Of a stretch of 64,000 nt of DNA, positions 540-12,690 are shown in pieces. The DNA is from Maritimibacter dapengensis (GTDB lineage Bacteria; Pseudomonadota; Alphaproteobacteria; Rhodobacterales; Rhodobacteraceae), in NCBI RefSeq assembly GCF_019218265.1, contig NZ_JAHUZE010000001.1:1-64000 (forward strand), given 5' to 3'. A program made the translations under genes and the position numbers. Position 1 is the first letter of the stretch. Each line of letters starts with the position of its first letter. Under the pieces are notes generated by a model, which saw only the letters and a list, made by a program, of their open reading frames with translations, was not told the origin of the DNA and searched no databases.

Positions 540-1406
540 ATGGCAATCGGAGCGTTACAGGGCGTATCGCAAGGTCAAGGCTTTGTTGATCGTCGGGAAT
601 TGTACGATTCTGGCGTTCATAGAGCGCTACAGGCAGGAATTGTCGGACGCGGCAAAGTTGGCGCGGAGTCCATTGTACTCTCTGGTGGTTATGTCGATGA
701 CGAGGACTATGGATCGGTAGTCATTTATACCGGTGAGGGTGGACGGGACCAAAATTCGGGAAGGCAGATCGCAAACCAGTCTTTTTCGAGAGGAAACCAA
801 GCTCTCGTCACGAGCTGCCTGGAAGGTACGCCGGTTCGCCTTGTTCGAAAGATGAACGTAGAAGGAAATGACGTTTCTGGTCCCAAGTACAGGTACGACG
901 GGCTATTCCACGTTGAAAGCTATTGGCAAGAAACAGGTCTAGATGGTCATCAAGTCTGCAGGTTTCGTCTTGTCGATGAGCGAGCTTACCAAGGCTATCT
1001 TGGTTCAAATAGCCCGACTGAGTTGAACCACTCCACGTCAGCTCGTCGAGTCGAGAGCGTTGTTCAAAGAGTTGTCCGCGATACGGCCTTGGGGAGACGT
1101 GTCAAAGAGCTGCACGACTACACTTGTCAGGTTTGCGGAGGCCGCCTCCATTGCGTGGGCGGGCCGTACGCTGAAGCGGCACACATCCGGCCTGTCGGTC
1201 GACCCCATAACGGGCCTGATGACCTGTCCAACCTTCTCTGCCTTTGCCCAAACCATCACGTGCTTCTTGACCGAGGAGCTTTGGTCATCGACCAAAATTG
1301 GAATGTTCAGCCTTTGGCAACGAAACTGAGAATGGTGGACCGCCACAAATTAGACCCGGCCCAAACTAGCTATCATTGGTCAATATGGCGCAATGAATCG
1401 GATTAG
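540..1406 (+). CDS. SRA (YDG)-HNH modification-dependent endonuclease, type IV-like
   Basis: A 288-residue two-domain protein behind an AGAGG ribosome site. Residues 1-150 are a YDG/SRA domain, with DSGVHRALQAGIVG, the VLSGGYVDDEDYG segment, YTGEGG at 63-68 and an NQALVTS stretch. SRA domains flip out and read 5-methyl- or 5-hydroxymethylcytosine. Residues 185-255 are an HNH nuclease with CQVCG at 196-200, AHIRP at 214-218 and CPNHH at 236-240, so zinc ligands and catalytic histidine are all present. SRA-HNH proteins of this size include known type IV restriction enzymes that cut cytosine-modified DNA. No partner methylase is next to it, as expected for a type IV enzyme. It looks intact. Confidence 0.85.
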   Translation: MAIGALQGVSQGQGFVDRRELYDSGVHRALQAGIVGRGKVGAESIVLSGGYVDDEDYGSVVIYTGEGGRDQNSGRQIANQSFSRGNQALVTSCLEGTPVRLVRKMNVEGNDVSGPKYRYDGLFHVESYWQETGLDGHQVCRFRLVDERAYQGYLGSNSPTELNHSTSARRVESVVQRVVRDTALGRRVKELHDYTCQVCGGRLHCVGGPYAEAAHIRPVGRPHNGPDDLSNLLCLCPNHHVLLDRGALVIDQNWNVQPLATKLRMVDRHKLDPAQTSYHWSIWRNESD

Positions 1407-1438: not shown

Positions 1439-2605
1439 TTACGAAAGTTGGTCCCTTTCTTCCAACATAGAGGGACTTTCCCTGCCGTTTTTGCTAACTG
1501 CTTTGGCCATTTGATTTAAGCAAGTTTCGGTCCGAGAGATTGCACCGCGATCCGATGCCATAATCAAAAACTTCAGGCCTTTTGAGCTTAGACCGCCCAG
1601 TTCTGAGAAGAGACAAATGGGAAGAATCCGGTTATCTCTGAATCGTCCGTCCGGACCTCCGTTCTTGTTTGGATGCTTCCAGGTTTGACCAACAACTTCC
1701 GCGTCTTGGGGTAATCCATCATCCACGATAAATCGCGTTTGTCGCGAGGCAATGCGTAGGTCTTCGTAGGGTACGGACCCATAAACCCGACCTTCACGGA
1801 CAATTACGCAATCTGGCATGAAGTGAAGGGTTTTCCCGTCGACCTTAATGCAGGGTGCCGTCACGTTGCATTGAAGGCTCGGGGGGTGATCATATCTTAC
1901 CTCTGTTGGATGTTTTTCAATTAGATGGCTTGCTCCAGAGTTCCTCTTCCATGCGACTAGATTGGTTATGTCTCCTGCCGCCTCTACATACCACAACCCA
2001 TCCGACTGCCCCAAGCGATCCAATGCATCCACGAGGTTCTGATAGTTTTCCTTCGCTACTCCATCCAAGTCGTATGCCAATACGACATTCAAACGAGCGC
2101 TGTCTGCACGTGAAGCAATAGCAAAGCCTACCGCGGTGAAGGCGAGTGCAATGAGTGCCGCGATCTCAGAATGCATTGCCGTTGCAAGGATGATTGCCAT
2201 GCCGACACCGACAACAAGAGTTGGGATCGAAAGACCTATCTTCCCACGAGCCTCATTAAGATCTGAAATCGTATTGTCGAGGGTTCCTGAGCTTAGCTCG
2301 TCAATTGGACTGGAGACTATCCGCCTCATGAGTACGCCGTCTGCGGTTTTGTAGGTCAATTCGCTGGACTGCGTATCAATCAGACCTTGGCTGAGTTTCG
2401 CATTGTTCCTTTGTGAACGCTTTCCGTCGATGCCCGATATAGTCTTTCGATAATAGACACCATTACTTCCTGCATGGACATAGTGACCACGAGGTCCTGT
2501 CCCGAAACGCAGGCCCTTCTTTCCTACTGAGATTCCAAGGCCTGACTTAGCCAAGTTGACGCGAAATGGTCCGAAGGAAATCGTATCTCGGTAATAGAGC
2601 GGCAT
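1439..2605 (-). CDS. DUF4236 domain membrane protein
   Basis: A 388-residue protein. Residues 1-57 are a DUF4236 domain, recognised by YYRDTISFGPFRVNLAKSG, GISVGKKGLRFGTGPRG and the YRKTIS end. Two adjacent hydrophobic segments (about 123-142 and 146-165) form a membrane hairpin. The remaining 220 residues are soluble and unrecognised. DUF4236 is common at the N terminus of bacterial proteins of unknown function, often on mobile DNA. The gene converges on the SRA-HNH gene and shares no operon with it. An AGGA ribosome site lies before the ATG. I cannot assign a function. Confidence 0.7.
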   Translation of the reverse strand: MPLYYRDTISFGPFRVNLAKSGLGISVGKKGLRFGTGPRGHYVHAGSNGVYYRKTISGIDGKRSQRNNAKLSQGLIDTQSSELTYKTADGVLMRRIVSSPIDELSSGTLDNTISDLNEARGKIGLSIPTLVVGVGMAIILATAMHSEIAALIALAFTAVGFAIASRADSARLNVVLAYDLDGVAKENYQNLVDALDRLGQSDGLWYVEAAGDITNLVAWKRNSGASHLIEKHPTEVRYDHPPSLQCNVTAPCIKVDGKTLHFMPDCVIVREGRVYGSVPYEDLRIASRQTRFIVDDGLPQDAEVVGQTWKHPNKNGGPDGRFRDNRILPICLFSELGGLSSKGLKFLIMASDRGAISRTETCLNQMAKAVSKNGRESPSMLEERDQLS

Positions 2606-2639
2606 TCATATTCCTAATGATCATTTGGAACTGCTTTCG

Positions 2640-2789
2640 TTAGATGACAAAAACAATAACAATAAACCCTGCACCTTTTTGAATTGCTTTCTTGAACCCC
2701 CGGTCCCCTCCGATGGTTTGCGCGCTTGAAAGGTGGCGACGCAAGGCGGTGCAGGCGAAGGCTCGCCCGCACCCAGAATTTTTCAGCAA
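2640..2789 (-). CDS. possible small membrane peptide
   Basis: A 49-codon reading frame starting at a TTG that overlaps the 3' end of the lipoprotein gene. The C-terminal half runs GGDRGFKKAIQKGAG and then into a hydrophobic FIVIVFVI end. The mix looks protein-like, but there is no ATG and no separate ribosome site. A longer frame on the same strand (2614-2814) also lacks support. Without comparison to other genomes it may be a non-coding 3' region. Confidence 0.25.
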   Translation of the reverse strand: MLKNSGCGRAFACTALRRHLSSAQTIGGDRGFKKAIQKGAGFIVIVFVI

Positions 2790-3115
2790 CCCTTGCGAGC
2801 TTCTTCGAGTTCAATCGCTTGTAGGTGCCCTTTGGTCACTGCGATCTGCGTTTCCTTGTCAGATCCCGACATGCTGGCAAGTGGAAGGCCGAGAAGGAAT
2901 ACGCCGAATGCGTCACCTGCAGCCGCGTCTTGTTGTTGGGCGCTTAGGTTGGCCAATGCTTGCCGATATTTCACTTTCGTCTGTGTAAGCTGGGAGCATG
3001 AATAGCCACGATACGCGTTTGTACCAATGTCGGCCGCAGCAATGTTTTCAGGTGCTTTGGCGCAGCTCACAAGAAATGTGCCGATCACAGCCATGCCTAT
3101 GATTGTTTTTGTCAT
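2783..3115 (-). CDS. small lipoprotein
   Basis: A 110-residue protein with a lipoprotein signal: positively charged start, hydrophobic stretch, and lipobox LVSC with Cys18 as the lipid-modified residue. The mature part has a conserved-looking YRGYSCSQL motif, a helical Gln/Ala-rich stretch (about 48-66) and a GDAFGVFLLGLPLAS segment followed by a helical end. Similar small lipoproteins of unknown function recur in Rhodobacteraceae. An AAAGGG ribosome site precedes the ATG. It probably sits on the inner leaflet of the outer membrane; no role can be assigned. Confidence 0.7.
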   Translation of the reverse strand: MTKTIIGMAVIGTFLVSCAKAPENIAAADIGTNAYRGYSCSQLTQTKVKYRQALANLSAQQQDAAAGDAFGVFLLGLPLASMSGSDKETQIAVTKGHLQAIELEEARKGC

Positions 3116-3291
3116 AACCCGTTTCCCTTTCTGATTGTTGTTTCCCTATATCGAATTGTTAATGCGGATTCCGCAAGTGTCGATCCATGGCTTTCAGGTA
3201 TGTGATGAACCTGAATTGATGAATTGCAGCAGAGATGTATGTCCCGACATTACTTGGCAGCATTTATTGCATAAGAGGTGGCTCGAAGCGG

Positions 3292-3409
3292 TCTGCCAAT
3301 AGACCTTGCTCATTTGTCAGCCCTCCGACCGTGGCGCAATTCCTGCCAGATGGATGGGTTTCTGCTTTTGGCAGAAGACCTGTCTCTGAATCTAAAATCT
3401 ATTGGCAGA
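3292..3409. promoter_or_regulatory. candidate crossover/res site of the adjacent serine recombinase
   Basis: A perfect 12-base inverted repeat, TCTGCCAATAGA (3292-3303) and TCTATTGGCAGA (3398-3409), frames the leader of the recombinase gene. Between the arms lie further copies of the GGCAGA/TCTGCC half-site, including CTGCCAGA near 3343 and the hairpin TTCTGC...GCAGAA at 3360-3376. Arrays of such half-sites immediately upstream of a resolvase gene are the usual layout of res sites, which also serve for autoregulation. This is inferred from pattern and position. Confidence 0.4.
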
Positions 3410-3421
3410 TAGGAGGTCAAA

Positions 3422-3967
3422 ATGCTGATTGGATATGCCAGAACTTCGACCCTTGAACAGAAAGCATCCATAGAGGCTCAGAGAGAGTCTCTCAGCGCCA
3501 TCGGGTGCGAAAGGGTGTGGGATGAGCAAGTGAGTTCAGTTGGGGCCAGAGAGGCGCTCACAGACGCTCTCAGCTTCACTCGGGAAGGCGACACCCTCGT
3601 GGTGACCAAACTCGATCGTCTAGCCCGTTCTGTTCGGCATCTGGGGGAGGTGGTGGACCACCTGGAGGCCAAGGGCGTCAATCTCAGGGTGCTTGATATT
3701 TCTCTAGATACATCGACGGCCACAGGGAAGCTCATGATGAACGTCTTGGGGTCAGTTGCCCAGTTCGAACGCGAGATGATGCTTGAGCGACAACGTGAGG
3801 GGATCGCCAAGGCAAAGGCGCAAGGTCGATACAAAGGAAGGAAGCCGACAGCGAGCGCCAAGAAGGCTGAGATTGATCTAATGATCTCTAAGGGGCACAC
3901 GAAGCGAGAGGTCGCAGCTGCGCTGGGCGTTTCCGAGAGGTCCGTCTATCGAGTTTGTTCTAGCTGA
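3422..3967 (+). CDS. serine recombinase (resolvase/invertase family)
   Basis: A 181-residue protein with the classical resolvase layout. The N-terminal catalytic domain has the nucleophile Ser9 in IGYARTST and the LVVTKLDRLARS motif carrying the active-site arginines. The long dimer helix contains GSVAQFEREMMLERQREGI. A C-terminal helix-turn-helix (about 150-178, HTKREVAAALGVSERSVYR) binds DNA. It catalyses two-strand exchange through a 5'-phosphoserine link, resolving cointegrates or inverting a segment. An AGGAGG ribosome site lies directly before the ATG. Length and motifs are complete, so it is probably active. It marks this region as mobile or plasmid-derived DNA. Confidence 0.9.
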   Translation: MLIGYARTSTLEQKASIEAQRESLSAIGCERVWDEQVSSVGAREALTDALSFTREGDTLVVTKLDRLARSVRHLGEVVDHLEAKGVNLRVLDISLDTSTATGKLMMNVLGSVAQFEREMMLERQREGIAKAKAQGRYKGRKPTASAKKAEIDLMISKGHTKREVAAALGVSERSVYRVCSS

Positions 3968-4435
3968 ACCTTGGAAGCTGAGAGCAAGACGGGGTTCTGC
4001 TCTCGGCCCGAACCTACCTCAACGTGCAACCCAGGATCACTGCGAATGCAGCTTACATCGCTGACGTTCGTCCCGGTGCCGCGAGGTTGGAAGATTTCGG
4101 GGTTGTTGGCCTCATACCATTTCTTGATGGTTCGCGTCGGGTTTGGGAGTGCAAGGCCTCGACGTATTCGCAAATCAAGGATTGCATAGCTTTCGGTGAA
4201 CTTCTCAGCGCCTTCTCCAGAAGTCGCAAATTCAAAAAGCCTGGCAGAATATGCATCATCTGGATCTTAGCTTCCAACGCGCCAAGTGACGATGAACTTT
4301 CCATCGCGAGCAATGACGTCGGCCTGCGAAGGCACGGTTCGAATCGGCTGCACATCAACTCATCGTGGACGACGTTGATTGGATAAACCGGCTCTATAGC
4401 GCCAAATTGCCTTACAACACAAGTCGTTGCAAACA
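3946..4435 (-). pseudogene. decayed gene with an in-frame stop and a frameshift
   Basis: The minus strand reads as one protein-like sequence over about 160 codons in two frames. Starting at 4435 it reads GAIEPVYPINVVHDE. Near 4350 the frame shifts and continues with TVPSQADVIARDGKFIVTW. It hits a TAA at 4267-4269, then continues in the same frame through FTESYAILDLRIRRG, IKKWYEANNPEIFQP and GRE to a TAG at 3946. It overlaps the recombinase 3' end by 22 bases. I do not recognise the family and find no good start. The next 190 bases (4436-4628) show no gene. Confidence 0.4.
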
Positions 4436-4628
4436 GTTCTAGTCAAGAATCAGGGACTACAGCGAACCATAAGCAATAGTGCTAGGTGCCGCCGTGCGGC
4501 ATCTCAAAACGGACATCCGAATGGTTGCGCAGTCATGGTTCCCTCAAGGCCAAGAATCGCAACTCTCAAGACATCCAACTCGCCCACTTTCAAACTGCAC
4601 GACAACACCAACTTTTTGCAGTACGCAA

Positions 4629-5462
4629 CTACAACCAAGATCGAATGACCAGCTCTTCGGTAGGACTGCGAAATTTTGCATTGCCAGCTAGAACACTGGC
4701 GCGGTCAACTACAGTATGTTGCCCAAAACCTGCATACAACTCAGAGATCGAAGCATGATTTGCATTGGTCACCATTATCATCGCGCCACGGTTTCTTGCT
4801 CTAACGACTGCATCACGTAGCCGAACTTGGTCATTCCAAGAGAATATCTTGTCGTTGTATTTTACAAACCCATTTAAGTTATGCTTGACTGTGTATGGCG
4901 GATCGACAAACACGAAATCGCCCGCACCCACTCTATCGATCGTTTCTTCAAAATCGCATTGGCGGATTTCTGCATCCCGTAAGACTCGGGCGGTCGCCGG
5001 AAAATCGTCGGTCTTGAGCACAACAGTAGTCTTTGTTCCTTTCGGAACATTGAACTCGTTTCTTTTATTGACTCGATAGAGTCCATTCCAACAGGTTCTA
5101 TTAAGATATAGGAACCAAACTGCTAACTTAGTGGGATCATCTGGCTTGGCACTTCGGACGCGATAATAGTGTTCCTTGCTATGCACAGTTTGGTGATAAG
5201 CAAGACCATCCCTGATTTTATCGGGCTCATCCCGAATTGACCTGTAGCAGCCGATCAGATCATCGTTAAGGTCTGACAAGAGTGCTCTACGAGGACGCAA
5301 GGCGAAGAACACGGCACCGCTCCCAAGGAAGGGCTCTACAAACCGCTCAAAGGAATCCGGCATCAGATCCAGATACTTTTCAGCAAACCATCTCTTGCCC
5401 CCTGCCCATTTCAGAAATGGTTGGACTTGATTGAGGCCATCTTTTCCGCGCGTACCAATCAT
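4629..5462 (-). CDS. D12-class N6-adenine DNA methyltransferase (Dam-like)
   Basis: This enzyme transfers a methyl group from S-adenosylmethionine to the N6 of adenine in DNA. D12-family marks are all present: PFLKWAGGKRWF near the N terminus, the SAM-binding RFVEPFLGSGAVFF, LSDLNDDLIG, WFLYLNRTCWNGLYRVN, and the catalytic DPPY at about residue 190. The chosen start (277 residues) is the ATG that overlaps the upstream gene's stop as TGATG, which implies translational coupling; an ATG at 5480 would add six residues. It is the last gene of a three-gene operon. Target sequence unknown. It could be an orphan methylase, but the tight coupling argues for a joint function with the two upstream proteins. 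Confidence 0.85.
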   Translation of the reverse strand: MIGTRGKDGLNQVQPFLKWAGGKRWFAEKYLDLMPDSFERFVEPFLGSGAVFFALRPRRALLSDLNDDLIGCYRSIRDEPDKIRDGLAYHQTVHSKEHYYRVRSAKPDDPTKLAVWFLYLNRTCWNGLYRVNKRNEFNVPKGTKTTVVLKTDDFPATARVLRDAEIRQCDFEETIDRVGAGDFVFVDPPYTVKHNLNGFVKYNDKIFSWNDQVRLRDAVVRARNRGAMIMVTNANHASISELYAGFGQHTVVDRASVLAGNAKFRSPTEELVIRSWL

Positions 5463-6811
5463 CACGAACAAAGGCCCCATAACCCAACTCGCTCGTGGCT
5501 GGACAATACTGAAACTTCTCGAGGGATCGAGGTCAGTATTCCCTGTGGACTCGCCAAAGATCCCGGGGCTGTTGCTTCCATCAAATCAATCTCTCGCAGC
5601 GATTCATCTACGTCTGCCCAAAGGTCCGACAAAGGGTCAGGGCAATGCCCTGGTTGCCACAGCCCGCGTACCTCCCCGATAGCTTCCCACCAAAACTTGA
5701 GCAATGATTTGTTAAGGTCGGCACTTGAAAGGAGTTGCTGTGTAGATCCTGAAGCCACACGCAAGAGAAGTACCGCTCTGGAAACAACAGAGAACACATC
5801 GGTCTGGCCACCGCTTGGCTTGGTTCGCGAGTTCAAAAAAATCTGGGGGTCCTGTGGCGACGTTTGTCGCAACAAGAAGCTCTCGATCCTGTCCGCAGAT
5901 ATCCCTGCCAGCCCTTGAGCAGACACAAGAGCGCGAACTAGCGCCAAGAAGTCAGTATCCATCGCGGTAGCATTGCGCCCCGTGCGTCCCTTAAATAAAC
6001 GCTCGACCGCTAATCTCAATATATGACGGTCAATCTGGTCAAAAGACGACGAAGCGCTTGGTTCTAGCGAAAACCAAAGGTCCTTCACAAACTCCAATGT
6101 GTCATCTATGTTTAACGTCCAGGTGCTCGGAACCCCATCAGGTCGGTAGCTGGAGGCATTGCGTGCCTCGCGATCCTCAATGGCTAGGTTCAGATCCATG
6201 CCCCATTGCATGAACCAGGCTTTTGCTTGTGGTGCTAGGACTGAAGCCCCACCTTGTGAATGAAACCAATCATCTAAAGTGCTTCCCTCAGGACGAACCA
6301 GCAAAGTGAAGAGATTACCTGATTGGGGAGCAAGTGCCCACGCTTCCAATACCAACCAAGTCATTATGTGGGTGCCTTGTTTCGTTGCAAGCTTCTTGGT
6401 TTGATTGGCACTTATGATCGCGTAGTGCTGTCGATTAAAGATCCCCACGCCTCGGCTCGCTAGCAAGGACATTGCTGCCCTAAGCTCGGCGTAGTAAGCA
6501 AGGTGCAGTGCACGGTGCGCATCTCCAGAAATTAGACTTGATATGCTACGTCCTAGATAGCTCCACCCATCATTTAGATGCAGAGGCGCACTAGCGGCAA
6601 TGTATTGCGCCAAGTTGCGGTGTTGTGTTGGGTTCGATGGTTGCGACCGCTTTAGCCTGGAAACGACGTCGCCGCGATAATAGTTTGTCGTCCCGAGCCA
6701 CAAAGAACGGGACAAGAAACGCTTAATACCAGCCGCAGTCACTTCCACGTCGGCCGCCAGAAGGGACCGAATAGTCATTGGGTCTGGATTGCGAAGTATC
6801 GACGCGTTCAT
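5462..6811 (-). CDS. unrecognised 449-residue protein with HEPN/YaaC-like helical segment
   Basis: A soluble, probably cytoplasmic protein of no family I can name. Residues 82-132 form an amphipathic helical pair (GDAHRALHLAYYAELRAA, then RGVGIFNRQHY) that resembles the HEPN/YaaC-type fold in proteins linked to RNA cleavage or defence. A THxxxW motif follows near 148-153. A canonical HEPN RNase motif (R, four to six residues, H) is not evident, so catalysis is uncertain. The C-terminal half (about 240-420) is helical and unrecognised. The ATG at 6811 is preceded in frame by GTG at 6814. Eighteen bases separate it from the DGQHR gene, and its stop overlaps the methylase start. This is the novel component of the operon. 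Confidence 0.6.
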   Translation of the reverse strand: MNASILRNPDPMTIRSLLAADVEVTAAGIKRFLSRSLWLGTTNYYRGDVVSRLKRSQPSNPTQHRNLAQYIAASAPLHLNDGWSYLGRSISSLISGDAHRALHLAYYAELRAAMSLLASRGVGIFNRQHYAIISANQTKKLATKQGTHIMTWLVLEAWALAPQSGNLFTLLVRPEGSTLDDWFHSQGGASVLAPQAKAWFMQWGMDLNLAIEDREARNASSYRPDGVPSTWTLNIDDTLEFVKDLWFSLEPSASSSFDQIDRHILRLAVERLFKGRTGRNATAMDTDFLALVRALVSAQGLAGISADRIESFLLRQTSPQDPQIFLNSRTKPSGGQTDVFSVVSRAVLLLRVASGSTQQLLSSADLNKSLLKFWWEAIGEVRGLWQPGHCPDPLSDLWADVDESLREIDLMEATAPGSLASPQGILTSIPREVSVLSSHERVGLWGLCS

Positions 6812-6832
6812 CACGGATGCAAAATGCGCTTG

Positions 6833-8374
6833 TTATATTCGTTTGAGGAGCTCTTGAGCAGTTTCACCAACTTCGCCTTCATGAGACAAAAGATGTTCAA
6901 GCAGTTGAACCCGCAGCTCTTTGTATCCGCTACTACCTCGGAAAACGAGCTTCTTTCGGCGAAGTTCATCGGAGATCGCGGGAGCTGCACTGGTGCGCCA
7001 ATCAAACGTACATAGCGCGGTGCAAATCTCTTGGACAAACCAAACGAAATCCTGCTTTTTTAAAGATTCAATTTCAGTTTCAACAGACCTCAGTGGATCA
7101 GCCTTTGATCTCTCATCAGGCCTCCACTGGTTTAGTCGTAATTTTGGTGCACGCAGATAGAACATGTCGTTCAAAACCTGGAGAAACCCTCTCACACCCT
7201 GATCTGTCGTGATTAATGAATGCGGGGAATAGAAGGCCAAGTCAAAGCCTGTTGGCACATCCTCAGGCCTTGGAGCGGGTTCGCCATCTATGCTAGGCGG
7301 GGTTCGAAGTGCTCTTGCCCAGTCTTCTTCGGACTCGGCCACCAATTTTCTGAATTGGTCCCAAGCATATACGAGGAATGCCGCCTGTTGTGCACGGCTC
7401 CACCCCAAGACCTCCTCACCTTTCTTTGAACGGCCACCAAAGAGGCCCCCGCTTAATCCGGAGCGACGGTCCCACGACCGAACAAAGCTGGCAGCAAGAG
7501 ACTTGATCCATGCGCTTTGGGTAACCCAGCGGTTCTTCCTTTCCCCAAGCATATTAATTCTGTCATACCAGGGACTTGTCGGAAGCGACCAAAGAAGTTC
7601 AGTGAGTTCTTGAGCACGAGTTTCGCGATAAACTACGTGTGTCTCGGCCTGCTCCAACCATTCTTCGCTTCTCAAGAGCGGATATAGGTCGAACGCCAAG
7701 CTCGGGTTTATTCGCTTTGGTTTGATGTTGATGGTCCAGAACAAGTAGGCCTGCCAACTAATGTCGAGCCCTACAAATGCGACGACAGGGAGTTCGAAAC
7801 CCTCCAAATCGTCAGCCTCATCAAATGCCCAAAGTCGGTGTTGTCCGTCAATCACCTCAAATGGCGGTAGCTGGGCAGGCCTCCACGTCTTCGTCCACTT
7901 TTTATAGGGTAAGCTAACTCTTGGTCCACACTCGCTTTCCTCCACGGTGACGACGTCTTGGGCAGCGACAGTGTTCCCAAATCTCTTGTGGCCTTTGCAC
8001 AGAACATTGAGCACTACCGCGGTGGGCAGCCAACCTGGTTTCCGTAAAGAGTGAAACTCAGCGGAGTCTCTCTTAGCCTGTCCCAAAGTTGACCAGGGGT
8101 ATCCATACTCAACGAAACGACTGATTTCTTCGGACCTTTCGGGATCGTGCTGACGCTGTATCCCAAGGTCTTCTGTCCGCGGCGAAGCGTCTTTTGCCTG
8201 ACGCCTTGATATACCAGACAGGCTTCTTAGCTCCCGCGCAGGAAGCGAGAAAAGGTAGAACTGCTTTTGAGGCTTTGCACGGTGCTCGCTCTCATCAAAA
8301 CTGACGTGATCCCAACCTTTCAACCATTGATGTACGGGTATGGCAGGAACTTGGCGGTGCTTTTCTGCTTTCAA
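6833..8374 (-). CDS. DGQHR-domain protein (DndB/DpdB-like)
   Basis: A 513-residue protein with the diagnostic motif VIDGQHRLWAFDE (DGQHR at 176-180), which names a family related to the ParB/Srx fold. Relatives include DndB, the regulator of phosphorothioate DNA modification, and DpdB of the 7-deazaguanine DNA-modification system. After the motif come LPVVAFVGLDISWQAYLFWTIN and KPKRINPSL, as in those families. The C-terminal half (about 230-510) is long and unassigned. It starts with TTG behind GAGGAAAG. It is the first gene of the operon with the unknown protein and the adenine methylase. No dndCDE or dpdA genes are in the window, so this is neither a standard Dnd nor Dpd locus. Confidence 0.8.
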   Translation of the reverse strand: MKAEKHRQVPAIPVHQWLKGWDHVSFDESEHRAKPQKQFYLFSLPARELRSLSGISRRQAKDASPRTEDLGIQRQHDPERSEEISRFVEYGYPWSTLGQAKRDSAEFHSLRKPGWLPTAVVLNVLCKGHKRFGNTVAAQDVVTVEESECGPRVSLPYKKWTKTWRPAQLPPFEVIDGQHRLWAFDEADDLEGFELPVVAFVGLDISWQAYLFWTINIKPKRINPSLAFDLYPLLRSEEWLEQAETHVVYRETRAQELTELLWSLPTSPWYDRINMLGERKNRWVTQSAWIKSLAASFVRSWDRRSGLSGGLFGGRSKKGEEVLGWSRAQQAAFLVYAWDQFRKLVAESEEDWARALRTPPSIDGEPAPRPEDVPTGFDLAFYSPHSLITTDQGVRGFLQVLNDMFYLRAPKLRLNQWRPDERSKADPLRSVETEIESLKKQDFVWFVQEICTALCTFDWRTSAAPAISDELRRKKLVFRGSSGYKELRVQLLEHLLSHEGEVGETAQELLKRI

Positions 8375-9031
8375 TTTCTTTCCTCAAGCTCTGCAGCGAT
8401 ATGAACACTCGGATAGTATCGCGCTGAGTTCAACTTTAAATTCAGATTTAGCTTTGTCTCAATTGGGAGGCCTAGACGAACGGCAGAGTTAGAGCTTAGC
8501 GCAGGAGTCTGAACGCTAAACAACAAGCTCCATCCTGTTCGCCGGTCCTGACGCTCTGTCCTGGGGATCTTTCAATAGAGCAACCAAACGCCCTTACCTC
8601 GCTTGCAAAGTTTACTGCCCGCTTTCATCCGCTAGTCAACAGTAATATGCCCAACCAAAGACGGCAATCTTTCAAACCAACTGCGCATTTTTCTCACGCA
8701 GCAAAGACCGGCGTCCCGCCGAAACTGATCCTAGTACCATCCTTGAGTTTGGGCACATTTTTCTTTGCCAGGCCAAGATTTCTGGAGTCGGCAATTGCGA
8801 TACCTCGACGCAACTTCCACCGGTGAGAGCACTTTGAGTACCTAACGTAGGTCATGGTTGTAGGCGCAAGGATTTAATGTCGTCTACAGCGGGGAGCCGT
8901 TTTCCGTTGAGACAGTAGGCAAAAGGTGTTGTGGGTGTGTGTGGTATTTTTGTGTGGGATGGCTTCGCGCGGCGAAAATAAAATAAAAAAAACAATTATT
9001 TAGGTGCAAATCTACGTTTCGTCGGAGGAGG
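8375..9031. other. intergenic stretch, likely holding the DGQHR operon promoter
   Basis: About 650 bases between two minus-strand genes. I see no long reading frame. It holds one 53-codon frame (8694-8855, listed separately), a G/T-rich run at about 8925-8962, and then an A-rich run at 8978-9003. The A-rich part reads as a T-rich tract just after the HNH-HIT gene on the minus strand. No clean hairpin terminator was found. Confidence 0.4.
8694..8855 (-). CDS. possible 53-residue protein upstream of the DGQHR operon
   Basis: An ATG-initiated frame, basic at its start (WKLRRG), with a coherent DSRNLGLAKKNVPKLKDGT and an SFGGTPVFAA end. It lies on the same strand as, and about 320 bases before, the DGQHR gene. 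There is no clear ribosome site. It could be a small partner or regulator of the operon, a fragment of a lost gene, or chance. I do not recognise it. Confidence 0.3.
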   Translation of the reverse strand: MTYVRYSKCSHRWKLRRGIAIADSRNLGLAKKNVPKLKDGTRISFGGTPVFAA

Positions 9032-10036
9032 TCAGTAGCTCTGCTTGTCGGTGATCACACCTCGCACGCCGCCCCTTGGGTTTTGAACGTCACCGCCTCG
9101 TCTTGGGATCAAATGCAGATGAACATGGAAAACCGTCTGGCCCGCTGACGCGCCCGCGTTGGCGCCTATGTTGAAGCCAGACACTGACCGGTCGAGGGTA
9201 CAGATTTCCTTTCGTTGTCTTTGTAGAAGGTCCTCAATGGCGTTCCGTTCCGGTTGGTAAAGATCAAAGTAGTTGGCAACATGGCGCTTTGGTAACACGA
9301 GCGTATGCAGCTCCGTGACTGGGTAAGCATCCCTAATCGCGTATGCTAGCTGGTTTTGGCCAACGATGCGGTCGGCTTCGATTTTGCAGAATAGGCATGA
9401 TTCGTCCCGTTCTTCATAGCTATTCAAGACGTCTCGAAAGTCCGTATCGTCATTGTCGCGCTTGTTTGTGTTGCAGGTGATACACAGCGCTTGGAAGTTG
9501 CTTAGGTCGTCGGGTCCGCCCTTTGCTCTCGGGATTATATGGTCGATGTGAAGCGCGGCTTGGTCTTCGTGAGCACCGCAAAGTTCGCAGCGGTACTTCG
9601 CTCGCTTGAGAACGGTGTATCGAATGGACCCTGGCACATAGCCGTCAGATGGTCTTCGATGATCATAGAGGACCGCTCCTCGCTGTTTGAGGAACTGAGC
9701 CACCTTCTGGTCACACAACGCGCTCAGTGCCTTTCTCTGTAGCTCTGAGAGGCCCTCTGAGTTTAGGCGATAGCCGATGATGCGATTGCCTCGCTTCATG
9801 GGTTCCACAATCCCATTCTGATGAAGGACCTTCCCAACCATATTCTTGGTTCGAATTGCGTAGTACTCAACCTGGGACAGGTCATGCACGAGCAACGCTC
9901 TTGAAACATCCTCGACGGAGACTTCGCCGCCTGCATCAAGAAGGACTTTGAGCATCACCGGCTGATAGATATGGCTCATCTTCATCCGGTTGCGGACGAA
10001 GTCTTCTAGTTGGCTTGCGGACAATCTCTCGGTCAT
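9032..10036 (-). CDS. HNH nuclease fused to a HIT-domain hydrolase
   Basis: A 334-residue, three-part protein. Residues 1-110 look like a winged-helix DNA-binding module. Residues 138-195 are an HNH nuclease: CELCG at 150-154, HIDHIIPRAKGG at 163-174 and the second CxxC at 185-188. Residues 212-312 are a HIT (histidine triad) domain with FCKI at its start and HVHLHLIPR at 304-312. HIT enzymes hydrolyse or transfer nucleotidyl groups on nucleoside phosphates. The combination suggests DNA cleavage linked to a nucleotide signal or to removal of a nucleotidyl adduct. It is transcribed in the same direction as the DGQHR operon but lies 650 bases upstream, so it may be a separate unit in the same island. 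Confidence 0.85.
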   Translation of the reverse strand: MTERLSASQLEDFVRNRMKMSHIYQPVMLKVLLDAGGEVSVEDVSRALLVHDLSQVEYYAIRTKNMVGKVLHQNGIVEPMKRGNRIIGYRLNSEGLSELQRKALSALCDQKVAQFLKQRGAVLYDHRRPSDGYVPGSIRYTVLKRAKYRCELCGAHEDQAALHIDHIIPRAKGGPDDLSNFQALCITCNTNKRDNDDTDFRDVLNSYEERDESCLFCKIEADRIVGQNQLAYAIRDAYPVTELHTLVLPKRHVANYFDLYQPERNAIEDLLQRQRKEICTLDRSVSGFNIGANAGASAGQTVFHVHLHLIPRRGGDVQNPRGGVRGVITDKQSY

Positions 10037-10147
10037 ACTTCACATGCTTGACCACGATTAAGCAGAATGCCAGCTTGAACCGACCAAACGAACCACGAAA
10101 ACCTCGATAGCTAACTATCTTCAGATGATAGCCCCAAAGACGCTACG

Positions 10148-10543
10148 ATGCTGTCTGACCTATTCGACTTCTTGCATTGGGTCCCTTCCTCTCCCGTCGT
10201 GGCTGCCGCAGAAGATTGGATGCCTGTTGCGCTGGGCACCGCCCCCAGCGTGGCCCCTGACTGGGTCGTCAAGAACAACGCAAGTCTCTTCATCGGCATT
10301 GTAGAAGGACTGGCGTCGGACCCTACCCGCGTCGAAGTGATCTTCTGGCAAGCACGAGTGGGTCACGCCATCGCGATGGATTGGTGCGAAGGTTTCATGC
10401 AAGCCGCACGCGTAGAGCCGAAAGAGCGGCTTGGGTCCACATTCAGGTCCACACGGCCACCTTGCAAGCCTCCTAATCATTTGTTATGTAAGAAAAAAAT
10501 TCATGAAACGACCCCTCTCCTGGGCACCATCGTTTTCCGTTAG
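10148..10543 (+). pseudogene. truncated UPF0149 (YecA/YgfB)-like remnant
   Basis: The frame has the spaced features of the UPF0149 family: a DFLHW...AAEDWMPVALG start, a middle VEVIFWQ segment, and AMDWCEGFMQAARVEPKERLG. After about residue 100 the family pattern stops and the sequence becomes random-looking (RSTRPPCKPP), with the usual C-terminal half and SEC-C zinc tail missing. I read it as a 3'-truncated gene at the island border. The family call is by eye and uncertain. Confidence 0.4.
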
Positions 10544-10754
10544 TTGCTTTGATTTTCGAGAGAAACGTGCCGGGTTTCTTCCGAATCTGAATGGTCATTT
10601 CCAATAGAGCATGCAGCAAGCGCCCAATTTCGCGTCGGCAGTTTGACTCGCAATTGCGAAAGGAGCGCTACGGTTTTCTTTTGCGGTGACCGATAGTTCG
10701 GAAACTACCTCTTTGATGATCATTGGGTTTCCCGGTCTGTTTCGGCCATTCCGG

Positions 10755-10790
10755 ATAGAAAGAGGGCGCCCTCGCGGTGGTCGGGCGCCC
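10755..10790 (-). terminator. intrinsic terminator of the DUF6473 gene
   Basis: Two copies of GGGCGCCC (10764-10771 and 10783-10790) form an 8-base stem with an 11-base loop. On the minus strand it is followed by CTCTTTCT. It lies about 25 bases after the stop of the minus-strand DUF6473 gene. Confidence 0.75.
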
Positions 10791-10813
10791 TGTAACTCGT
10801 CTTTCGGTCCGCC

Positions 10814-11641
10814 TCACACCATGGCGCGGAGCACCCTGTCCAGTGCCGAGGCAGCGCGGGCGTGGGCAACGGTGCCAAGCATTCCCCTCGCCGCTGGCTC
10901 CTCGAACTCATTGAACGCAAGGCCTTCCCGGCCGTCGGCGATTTCCTCCGGTGTGGCCACGACCTCGACGATGTGTTCGACGTATGGCCGAACGTCTTCG
11001 AGCATTTCGCGGTCGATGAAAAGCGGATCTGATCCGTGGGCGGTGTCCGTAACCGCCTCCTCCGGTGAATGGTCCGCAAGCCACAAAAGAACGATGCGCG
11101 AGTCGATCTTCGAAATCAGCGTCTTCATGCGCGCCACCCAGGCCTCGCGCAGCTCCTGTTCGACCATCGCGAACTTTTCCTCGGAATTTTCGCGCAGCAC
11201 CGACAGCAGATGGCGCGTGAAGTTGAGCTCCGTGAAATCGACATTTCGATATATCGTCTTGACGAGGTTGGATGCGCGCAGAAACCGGTCATTGCGACGC
11301 GGATGCACGGCATAGAACCGGTTTGACATATTCTGCGCACCCATGATCTGGACCACCGTGACTTCGGCTTTCGAGCAGATATCGACGACGGTCCTGTCAT
11401 GCGCAAAGACGTCGAGCCCGGCATTCACGGTCCCCAGATTGATCACCGGCATGTTGAGCGTGCTTTCGGTCAATGCCGGGAAAGGGGTCTCCACGAATTT
11501 TCCGTAGGTTTCGGTCGCGCCGATCATCGCGATGTACGGGGCCGTCAGTTTACGTTTCGGTCCCCGGAACAGAAGTTTCGATTTCCCGTAGCGACACGGG
11601 ACATAGTCAAGGGCACTTTCACCCAGGTTTTCATAGGCCAT
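10814..11641 (-). CDS. DUF6473 family protein
   Basis: About 275 residues, start taken at the ATG at 11641 behind GGAG; a GTG at 11650 would add three. The family is typical of Roseobacter genomes. Recognisable parts are the opening ALDYVPCRYG and GPKRKL, IAMIGATETYGKFVETPFP, VINLGTVNAGLDVF and a C-terminal HIVEVVATPEEIADGREG. The SGNH/sulfotransferase-like core may handle cell-surface glycans, but no function is established. It is single, with its own terminator, and divergent from the hydroxyacyl-CoA dehydrogenase gene. It marks the start of core genome after the island. Confidence 0.75.
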   Translation of the reverse strand: MAYENLGESALDYVPCRYGKSKLLFRGPKRKLTAPYIAMIGATETYGKFVETPFPALTESTLNMPVINLGTVNAGLDVFAHDRTVVDICSKAEVTVVQIMGAQNMSNRFYAVHPRRNDRFLRASNLVKTIYRNVDFTELNFTRHLLSVLRENSEEKFAMVEQELREAWVARMKTLISKIDSRIVLLWLADHSPEEAVTDTAHGSDPLFIDREMLEDVRPYVEHIVEVVATPEEIADGREGLAFNEFEEPAARGMLGTVAHARAASALDRVLRAMV

Positions 11642-11814
11642 ACCACCCACTCCATTTTTTCACCCGAACCCGAGACTGGCAGTATTTCGTTGCCAAAAGC
11701 CTAAGACCAAAAGGCGCGGGACCGAGCTTTTTGCCGGCAAGGTAAACGGCTTGCGGGGTTGCGCCTCGGCATGGCACGCGCCTAATGTCGCTTGGGTAAA
11801 TCGAGAGGCCGAAA

Positions 11815-12690
11815 ATGACGATCAAATCCGTGGGCGTGATCGGCGCCGGACAGATGGGTAACGGGATTGCCCATGTTCTTGCACTCGCGGGCTATGACGT
11901 GCTTCTCAACGACATCGAACAGGGCGCCCTCGATGCCGCCGTCGAGACGATCAAGGGAAATCTCGACCGGCAGGTCAGCCGCGACAAGATCACGGAACAG
12001 GAGCGCGATGAGGCACTTGGGCGGATCAGCACGACGTTAACGCTCACCGACCTCGGACCAACCGATCTTGTCATCGAAGCTGCGACTGAACGGGAAACGG
12101 TCAAGCAGGCCATTTTCGAGGATCTCGTTCCTCATCTGAAACCAAATACGATCCTGACCTCCAATACGTCGTCGATCTCGATCACACGGTTGGCGTCGCG
12201 CACCGATCGCCCTGAAAAGTTCATGGGGTTCCATTTCATGAACCCGGTCCCGGTGATGCAGCTCGTGGAACTGATCCGAGGGATCGCCACGGACCAGGAG
12301 ACGTTCGACGCCTGCCTCGCCGTCGTCGAGCGGATTGGGAAGACTGCGTCGAGTGCCGAGGATTTTCCCGCATTTATCGTCAATCGTATCCTCATGCCGA
12401 TGATCAACGAGGCGGTCTACACGCTTTATGAAGGCGTCGGGTCGGTCAAGTCGATCGACGAGGCGATGAAGCTTGGGGCCAACCACCCGATGGGACCTTT
12501 GGAACTGGCGGACTTCATCGGCCTGGACACCTGTCTTGCAATCATGAACGTGCTTCACGACGGCCTGGCCGACACGAAATACCGGCCATGTCCGTTGCTC
12601 ACGAAATATGTCGAGGCCGGATGGCTCGGACGCAAGACGGGGCGCGGGTTCTACGATTACAGCGGCGAGACACCGGTGCCGACGCGCTGA
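11815..12690 (+). CDS. 3-hydroxybutyryl-CoA dehydrogenase
   Basis: A 291-residue enzyme that interconverts 3-hydroxyacyl-CoA (usually 3-hydroxybutyryl-CoA) and the 3-keto form with NAD(H), in short-chain beta-oxidation or polyhydroxybutyrate metabolism. The N-terminal Rossmann site is [19 protein letters not shown]. The catalytic histidine and asparagine sit in [17 protein letters not shown], and the C-terminal dimer domain has [18 protein letters not shown]. Length is normal for the single-domain form. A GAGAGG ribosome site precedes the ATG. It stands alone and converges on the acyltransferase gene. Confidence 0.92.

Follow-up and report, generated by a model that had tools for sequence, protein, structure and literature searches.

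The role of DGQHR (DndB-like) proteins in DNA-modification systems is an old question, and it is raised again by the first 64,000 nucleotides of contig NZ_JAHUZE010000001.1 of Maritimibacter dapengensis (the window hereafter). Three consecutive minus-strand open reading frames at 8374-4629 encode a DGQHR protein, an unrecognised protein referred to here as UNK, and a D12 N6-adenine DNA methylase. What might these three do together? The DGQHR gene (6833..8374; 513 amino acids (aa), with a TTG start preceded by a GAGGAAAG stretch) is followed after 18 bases by the UNK gene (5462..6814), whose product has 450 aa from a GTG or 449 aa from the next ATG. The methylase gene (4629..5480; 283 aa) begins inside the end of UNK, overlapping it by 19 bases if the longest frame (5480-4629) is taken, or through a TGATG if translation starts at Met7 (277 aa). 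An initial annotation made from the sequence alone had described the same layout, an 18-base gap followed by a TGATG overlap, and the only refinement needed is that the coupled start is Met7 of the longest methylase frame. The best explanation of the unit, given a probability of about 0.58, is a cassette resembling a restriction-modification (R-M) system, in which N6-methyladenine (m6A) marks self, the DGQHR protein senses unmarked DNA and UNK is thereby switched on.

The three-gene arrangement is more than chance, because the same genes recur in the same order in other genomes. Twenty-five distinct loci were compared, comprising the window, L002-L008, L064, L065 and 15 IMG/VR contigs, and all 25 hold UNK, an adjoining adenine methylase and a DGQHR gene, the last being broken in two of them (L064 and L028). 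The methylase gene overlaps UNK or lies no more than 70 bases away in every locus. Thus, the recurring neighbourhood that the initial annotation proposed to look for was found. With UNK as the query, five relatives were recovered from GTDB contigs, all with the three genes in the conserved order, along with five plasmid records, one from Rhizobium tumorigenes and four from Zymomonas mobilis (of which one was examined); 50,697 phage records gave no match. The UNK and DGQHR profiles detected at least 15 distinct IMG/VR contigs, 15 of 15 with DGQHR, UNK and D12 methylase genes, and with DGQHR as the query instead, all 14 viral-contig loci had UNK and a D12 enzyme. The unit is rare, and its occurrence scattered. 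UNK occurs in at least 1 of 101 relatives, 1 of 292 genomes of the order, 2 of 385 of the class and 2 of 398 of the phylum, each count being a lower bound that takes in the window's own genome; the two new genomes, those of L064 and L065, keep both DGQHR and UNK. The DGQHR profile matches at least 11 of 388 genomes, namely the window's, that of L064 and nine with different DGQHR proteins, which are encoded by frames of 327-763 aa, are similar mostly around the motif, and have no UNK within 9-15 kb around the DGQHR gene. A DGQHR protein of the window's subfamily lacking UNK was seen nowhere in the genome, plasmid and viral-contig searches.

The DGQHR protein belongs to the DndB superfamily, scoring 77.4 bits against TIGR03187 (cut-off 58.85) and 29.9 against PF14072 (cut-off 29.1), and carries its motif at residues 176-180 (7835..7849, minus strand), exactly where it had been reported. 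The motif is invariant in a 20-row alignment, and Arg180 is the presumed phosphate-motif arginine. The N-terminal 220 residues adopt a ParB/Srx fold in the predicted structure, for which the predicted local distance difference test (pLDDT) is 81 and the predicted template modelling score (pTM) 0.65, with all Z scores below 8. The 13 best matches are ParB, Noc, KorB and PadC structures (Z 5.2-7.4, root-mean-square deviation (rmsd) 2.4-5.2), including PadC at Z 7.4 and rmsd 2.7 over 100 residues and ParB with CDP at Z 6.9 and rmsd 2.5 over 95; sulfiredoxin (Z 4.8), SspE (3.8) and BrxU (2.8) appear lower in the ranking, where unrelated proteins reach up to 3.9. Foldseek against the PDB gave no match for this model at E ≤ 0.001, nor did a PDB sequence search with the DGQHR profile. 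The available passages of PMC12704722 describe a DndB-like protein that binds ATP and GTP, and a requirement for the box-II arginine for binding in this fold; a related motif, DGQQR, is reported for the GmrS component of GmrSD in those of PMC4619093. A nucleotide-binding sensor is what we predict for the window protein.

The middle protein has kept its description as unrecognised. At E ≤ 1, Pfam, NCBIfam and PADLOC offer no family for UNK; its sole PHROGs match is a 21-residue stretch at E 0.21, and a PDB search with its profile gave one irrelevant sequence at E 1.9. Its AlphaFold model is confident and almost all-helical (pLDDT 90.5, pTM 0.92), and Foldseek against the PDB and viral models returned nothing at E ≤ 0.001. 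Single-protein structure prediction, as suggested in the initial annotation, has thus yielded ParB-type matches for the DGQHR protein but no such relative for UNK. Fourteen residues are invariant over the 25 loci: H79, W84, H104, Y107, Y108, R112, T148, H149, W153, D207, R218, N219, S222 and Y223, the last four falling in an RN-x-SSY motif (6146..6163, minus strand). Three sets of hits among 21 UNK relatives were set aside. An SspH identity (L013 alone, PADLOC E 5.7e-4 over 63 residues) is attributed to chance because SspH is FtsK-like, with a profile length of 1255, and no other UNK member matched it; HEC-01B was matched by one member (L002) at 0.024; and eight Pfam and six NCBIfam families were matched by one member each (best E 0.0031), which is likewise taken as chance.

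Assignment of the third protein as a D12 N6-adenine methylase is borne out by TIGR00571 (dam) at 222.6 bits and PADLOC MTase_II at 2.9e-98, and its closest solved structure is the DpnII methylase (7e-56). The enzyme is thus an adenine methylase of the Type II R-M class and of the Dam/DpnII type, with its DPPY motif at residues 193-196 (4893..4904, minus strand). No recognition site is claimed for it, GATC included, because the loop after NVP-x-G is unlike that of both solved relatives, the DpnII and Escherichia coli Dam methylases, whose site is GATC and whose contact residues are known.

Comparison of the 25 loci shows that the DGQHR-UNK pair stays together and that methylases of the same chemistry have replaced one another beside it several times. 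Short D12 methylases (266-319 aa) are present in 14 loci, long ones (376-402 aa) in nine and MT-A70 enzymes in two, that of L064 matching PF05063 at 2e-27 and that of L065 being 75% identical to it. The methylase gene is on the opposite strand and convergent in four of the 25 (L014, L021, L064 and L065). Pairwise distances were compared over 21 loci, excluding L003 (DGQHR cut at a contig edge), L028 (DGQHR in pieces) and L064 and L065 (no D12 enzyme); they correlate at 0.96 between DGQHR and UNK, at 0.47 between DGQHR and methylase and at 0.49 between UNK and methylase, values that none of 2000 permutations reaches. When the three types of methylase are mapped on the UNK tree, seven changes are required, compared with 9.4 when labels are shuffled (9 of 200 shuffles go as low); counting the starred branches only, the short D12 type must have changed five times or more. 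Close neighbours on this tree differ in their methylase, as with L018 (short) among L007, L012 and L015 (long). What matters to the DGQHR-UNK pair would then be m6A on the DNA.

That this pair attacks while the methylase protects is argued most strongly by its replacement of a BglII/BstYI enzyme beside MT-A70. On plasmid pRiA4 (L059), an MT-A70 methylase 78% identical to that of L064 and 73% to that of L065 faces, in convergent orientation, a BglII/BstYI-family restriction endonuclease (REase), and in L064 and L065 the UNK-DGQHR genes occupy the place of the REase, convergent with MT-A70. Plasmid relatives of the methylases were drawn from the best 30 of 2481 records, the best 20 of 183 (MT-A70) and 20 of 66. 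Ten of those best 20 MT-A70 records were examined, and six, all proteobacterial and 71-78% identical (71-75% to L064's by tblastn), adjoin a BglII/BstYI-type REase, the two genes being convergent in four cases and sharing a strand in the other two. Judged by gene order, the DGQHR-UNK pair apparently stands in for the restriction enzyme of a cassette protected by methylation, and the earlier proposal that the methylase marks self while its partners attack is consistent both with this result and with the methylase exchange. Two loci with damaged DGQHR genes add to the picture: in L064 the gene is split into two frames and in L028 it lies in pieces 2.2 kb from UNK, and the UNK and methylase frames stay open in both over the sequence examined. 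This fits a methylase that protects and a DGQHR protein that activates UNK rather than acting as its antitoxin, in two cases only. Separately, the 2252-7131 region of pRiA4 holds, within 5 kb, the MT-A70 and BglII/BstYI R-M genes, a VapC-type toxin gene and a pair encoding a hydrophobic protein and a DGQHR protein; and on a Comamonas plasmid the MT-A70 and BglII/BstYI pair has, immediately behind it, a gene of an abortive-infection family (L083, 3688-4503).

The three genes form a real and coherent unit whose logic resembles restriction, and the comparative evidence supports this logic moderately. By its family, the D12 enzyme would place m6A on the host's own sites. The DGQHR protein, as a ParB/Srx-fold nucleotide-binding sensor, would engage DNA with unmethylated sites and switch on its all-helical partner, UNK. 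In the weakest step of the scheme, UNK would damage the invader or, more likely, shut the infected cell down in the manner of a HEPN ribonuclease. If this is true, a ParB-type nucleotide switch reads the host's mark on DNA and fires a separate effector, and the old question of the DGQHR/DndB role becomes testable with a three-gene, 3.7-kb cassette. Restriction would also gain a further logic, one in which the "enzyme" of an R-M system is a sensor plus an effector rather than a nuclease with its own specificity.

The alternative that survives best is direct restriction, in which DGQHR and UNK form a new two-subunit, sequence-specific DNA endonuclease, Type II-like, that cuts at unmethylated sites, UNK being the second subunit. 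The position of the pair beside the same MT-A70 lineage as BglII/BstYI enzymes is as expected for such a nuclease, ParB/Srx-fold proteins have been reported to nick DNA, and ParB-fold nuclease activity is mentioned in passages of PMC10853773 and PMC12839542. It is nevertheless unlikely: neither protein matches a REase or nuclease family in Pfam, NCBIfam, PADLOC or PHROGs, and in 8 of 16 other DGQHR loci, described below, the neighbour is a small hydrophobic protein, unlike a nuclease subunit. Type II R-M cassettes with a BglII/BstYI enzyme (the MT-A70 type of pRiA4, the D12 type of Acinetobacter TR3, and A118) share with the window unit a stand-alone adenine methylase beside a restriction slot, but in the window this slot holds DGQHR and UNK, and the cassette has no recognisable REase. 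For the A. baumannii A118 cluster with its BglII/BstYI-family enzyme, the available passages of PMC10287943 report m6A in RGATCY and leave the methylase class unstated.

Membership of a known modification system was also considered. DndC and PglZ have no match in the whole genome, DndD, DndE and DpdA not having been searched, so nothing points to a Dnd or BREX system having been missed, and in this the separateness claimed for the unit held up. The window DGQHR protein shares a superfamily with DndB and DpdB through PF14072 and TIGR03187; the unit differs from Dnd and Dpd in its partners, an m6A methylase and UNK, and in scores far below the cut-offs of the Dnd-associated DGQHR model DGQHR_dnd_1 (TIGR04172; 65.6 of 450 bits) and of the DpdB equivalog (27.7 of 300 bits). 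These same shortfalls count against a purely regulatory or epigenetic unit without a defence role, in which the DGQHR protein would repress or tune methylation and UNK would be an accessory. Such a unit has a model in DndB, described as an ATP-dependent repressor of the dnd genes in passages of PMC10853773 and PMC12704722, but the swapping of unrelated methylases on either strand means that neither a common promoter nor a common partner surface has been retained, and we consider it improbable. GmrSD, BrxU and SspE, which combine a ParB-fold DUF262 with HNH, resemble the window unit in that an effector is coupled to a ParB/Srx-fold protein bearing DGQ(Q/H)R, SspE also being linked to DNA modification, but the window unit has no HNH, a separate helical partner and weak fold similarity (Z 3.8 to SspE and 2.8 to BrxU). 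A Type IV-like arrangement, in which the m6A mark would itself trigger DGQHR-UNK as SspE depends on its own phosphorothioate (PT) mark (PT stimulation being reported in passages of PMC8092258), is equally improbable despite the weak alignment of the DGQHR model with SspE (Z 3.8), given that this similarity lies below that to plain ParB, that neither DGQHR nor UNK matches an HNH (DUF1524) domain in Pfam-type scans, and that at other loci the MT-A70 lineage has BglII/BstYI enzymes as partners and would be expected to protect against them.

The claim of a new composition did not stand. Table 1 of a 2013 survey of HEPN domains, in the part available, places family MAE_28990 in operons that also encode a ParB nuclease and a DNA methylase, and the same source notes Saro_3948, in which ParB and HEPN are fused (PMC3710099). 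The MAE_28990 operons have the same three-part make-up as the window unit, with a DNA methylase accompanying a ParB-fold protein and a partner that is (probably) helical; they differ in that MAE_28990 is listed with Rx4-6H, whereas UNK has Rx4Y and no Pfam match, the comparison being drawn from one table line and the fusion note. Apart from that line, the available passages of PMC10853773, PMC12839542, PMC4619093, PMC8092258, PMC12704722, PMC10287943, PMC10734518 and PMC3710099 contain no DGQHR-UNK-methylase unit. The initial annotation is therefore supported in part as a whole, in its recurring unit with no sign of Dnd or BREX, and not in the novelty of its composition, since ParB, HEPN and DNA methylase were already brought together in this one-line precedent. 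Within the searches made, what is new is the unnamed 450-aa helical family, its tight co-evolution with DGQHR, the repeated exchange of methylases and the replacement at the restriction slot.

A wider view of the DGQHR proteins comes from 16 loci without UNK, seven on plasmids (out of 16 non-UNK records, one of the seven having been reached through its methylase) and nine from the genome search. In eight (L058, L059, L060, L062, L079, L068, L069 and L070), a protein of 157-212 aa with three to five hydrophobic segments, as counted by a hydropathy window rather than a membrane-protein predictor, is encoded directly upstream. All eight lie within 4 kb of DNA-modification or PT-restriction genes, these being Dnd/PT genes at L058, L062, L094 and L095, R-M genes at L059 and L060, and D12 genes at L079 and L093 (L093-L095 are longer stretches of L068-L070). 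Four loci instead have a partner of 299-321 aa directly downstream of a DGQHR protein of 323-342 aa (L063 6737-7636, L073 2226-3131, L074 47-994 and L076 37-1002), with YY[AS] and RN-x-x-NY motifs in common with UNK. Of these and the small hydrophobic proteins, none of those scanned matches a Pfam family above cut-off, and the L063 partner has no relative beyond itself in plasmids or viral contigs. A strict pattern, YY[AGS]...[TS]H..W...RN...Y, is present in 23 of 23 UNK proteins tested and in two of the four ~300-aa partners (four of four in loose form); it is absent from every unrelated frame in a set of 1224 distinct open frames (one has the loose form) and occurs in 0 of 54000 shuffles. 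This sharing of motifs is a lead only, because the pattern was written after L063 and these partners had been seen, and hhalign left it unconfirmed (E 0.47, the reversed control reaching 0.49).

Two further loci (L098 and L061) encode proteins of 761-769 aa whose DGQHR motif precedes a tail that closes with RQKYSH or RQYTAH, the Rx4H of HEPN domains; the L061 protein is presumably Saro_3948. At L098 (6142-9310), a D12 methylase 55% identical to the window's precedes the 761-aa protein, with its central DGQHR and Rx4H tail, for which a PDB sequence search gave nothing relevant. By eye, its N-terminal QIDV...VECK stretch resembles a PD-(D/E)XK nuclease. D12 enzymes 57% and 47% identical to the window's likewise adjoin the hydrophobic-DGQHR pairs of L079 and L093. 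The L061 locus, on Novosphingobium pNL1 (5275-12636), contains two DGQHR genes with radical SAM and ATP-binding proteins between or beside them. The remaining two of the 16, L096 (beside dndC/dndD homologues) and L097, are without such a partner. A sensor with exchangeable effectors fits these loci, as DGQHR proteins pair with different partners, some probably membrane-bound, and often stand beside DNA-marking genes. A bolder generalisation, which we offer tentatively and think possible rather than probable, is that DGQHR proteins are general sensors of self-marking, served by exchangeable marks (m6A from unrelated methylases, or phosphorothioate) and exchangeable killers. The killers would be UNK, the small hydrophobic membrane-type protein, perhaps the ~300-aa protein with similar motifs, and the fused HEPN-like tail, and UNK would found a superfamily of helical effectors triggered by loss of the mark and recognised by YYA, T/S-H-x-x-x-W and RN-x-x-x-Y.

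As to the nature of UNK itself, its order of elements recalls HEPN domains, with a helix pair, the YYA motif, a later histidine and RN-x-SSY, and the position of the invariant RN-x-SSY, downstream of the invariant H79, H104 and H149, is a hint that UNK could be a HEPN-like effector of a variant kind. In the available part of the HEPN survey (PMC3710099), the residue after the arginine is mostly N, D or H, and certain families without the motif histidine keep an upstream conserved histidine as a possible substitute. A HEPN-like UNK is a working guess held at about even odds.

Several observations weigh against the self-marking cassette with a DGQHR sensor and a UNK effector. The canonical HEPN Rx4-6H is absent from UNK, which has Rx4Y in 25 of 25 loci, and family scans of the window UNK and 21 relatives found no recognised nuclease family or motif. 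Against ten PF05168 proteins and one YaaC protein, hmmsearch with the UNK profile gave a best E of 4.4, and hhalign a probability of 0.1-0.4% over the HEPN/YaaC sets, with reversed controls equal or higher in other sets. A three-protein subset does bring the YYA motifs into register, with a score of 16.3 against 8.9-13.8 for its own reversed controls and up to 20.3 for those of others, at a probability of 0.4%. In the fold comparison UNK comes closest to the ROQ domain of Roquin, a region that holds a HEPN fold, at Z 5.9 and rmsd 4.7 over 132 residues, a level that helical proteins reach through a common arrangement. The sensing of methylation by DGQHR is drawn from its neighbourhood alone. 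Near three of the four loci with ~300-aa partners (L090-L092) there is no recognised modification gene, which disfavours the idea that DGQHR proteins always read DNA marks. The methylase distances track the DGQHR-UNK pair beyond all 2000 permutations, so that methylase exchange is not free and partly follows the pair. Four of the ten plasmid MT-A70 enzymes, those of Deinococcus, Arthrobacter, Mycobacteroides and Kocuria (64-70% identical), have no adjacent BglII/BstYI enzyme. Lastly, the system is rare, being found in at least 2 of 398 phylum genomes with the window's included.

The cassette sits within the first 10.1 kb of the window, which looks acquired because of its low GC content (51%, against 63% over 10.7-64 kb) and the serine recombinase it encodes. 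The left end of this island is out of view, the window beginning where the contig begins. The small serine recombinase gene lies near the operon (3422-3967, plus strand), and a DUF4236 protein related to phrog_17982 is encoded at 1439-2605 on the minus strand. Both nuclease-type genes placed in the island by the initial annotation are present. One (540-1406, plus strand) encodes an SRA-HNH protein, likely a modified-DNA nuclease, and the other (9032-10036, minus strand) a 334-aa HNH-HIT protein, with HNH at residues 150-194 and HIT at 222-314, the HIT part of which matches PADLOC ThsC at 1.4e-8.

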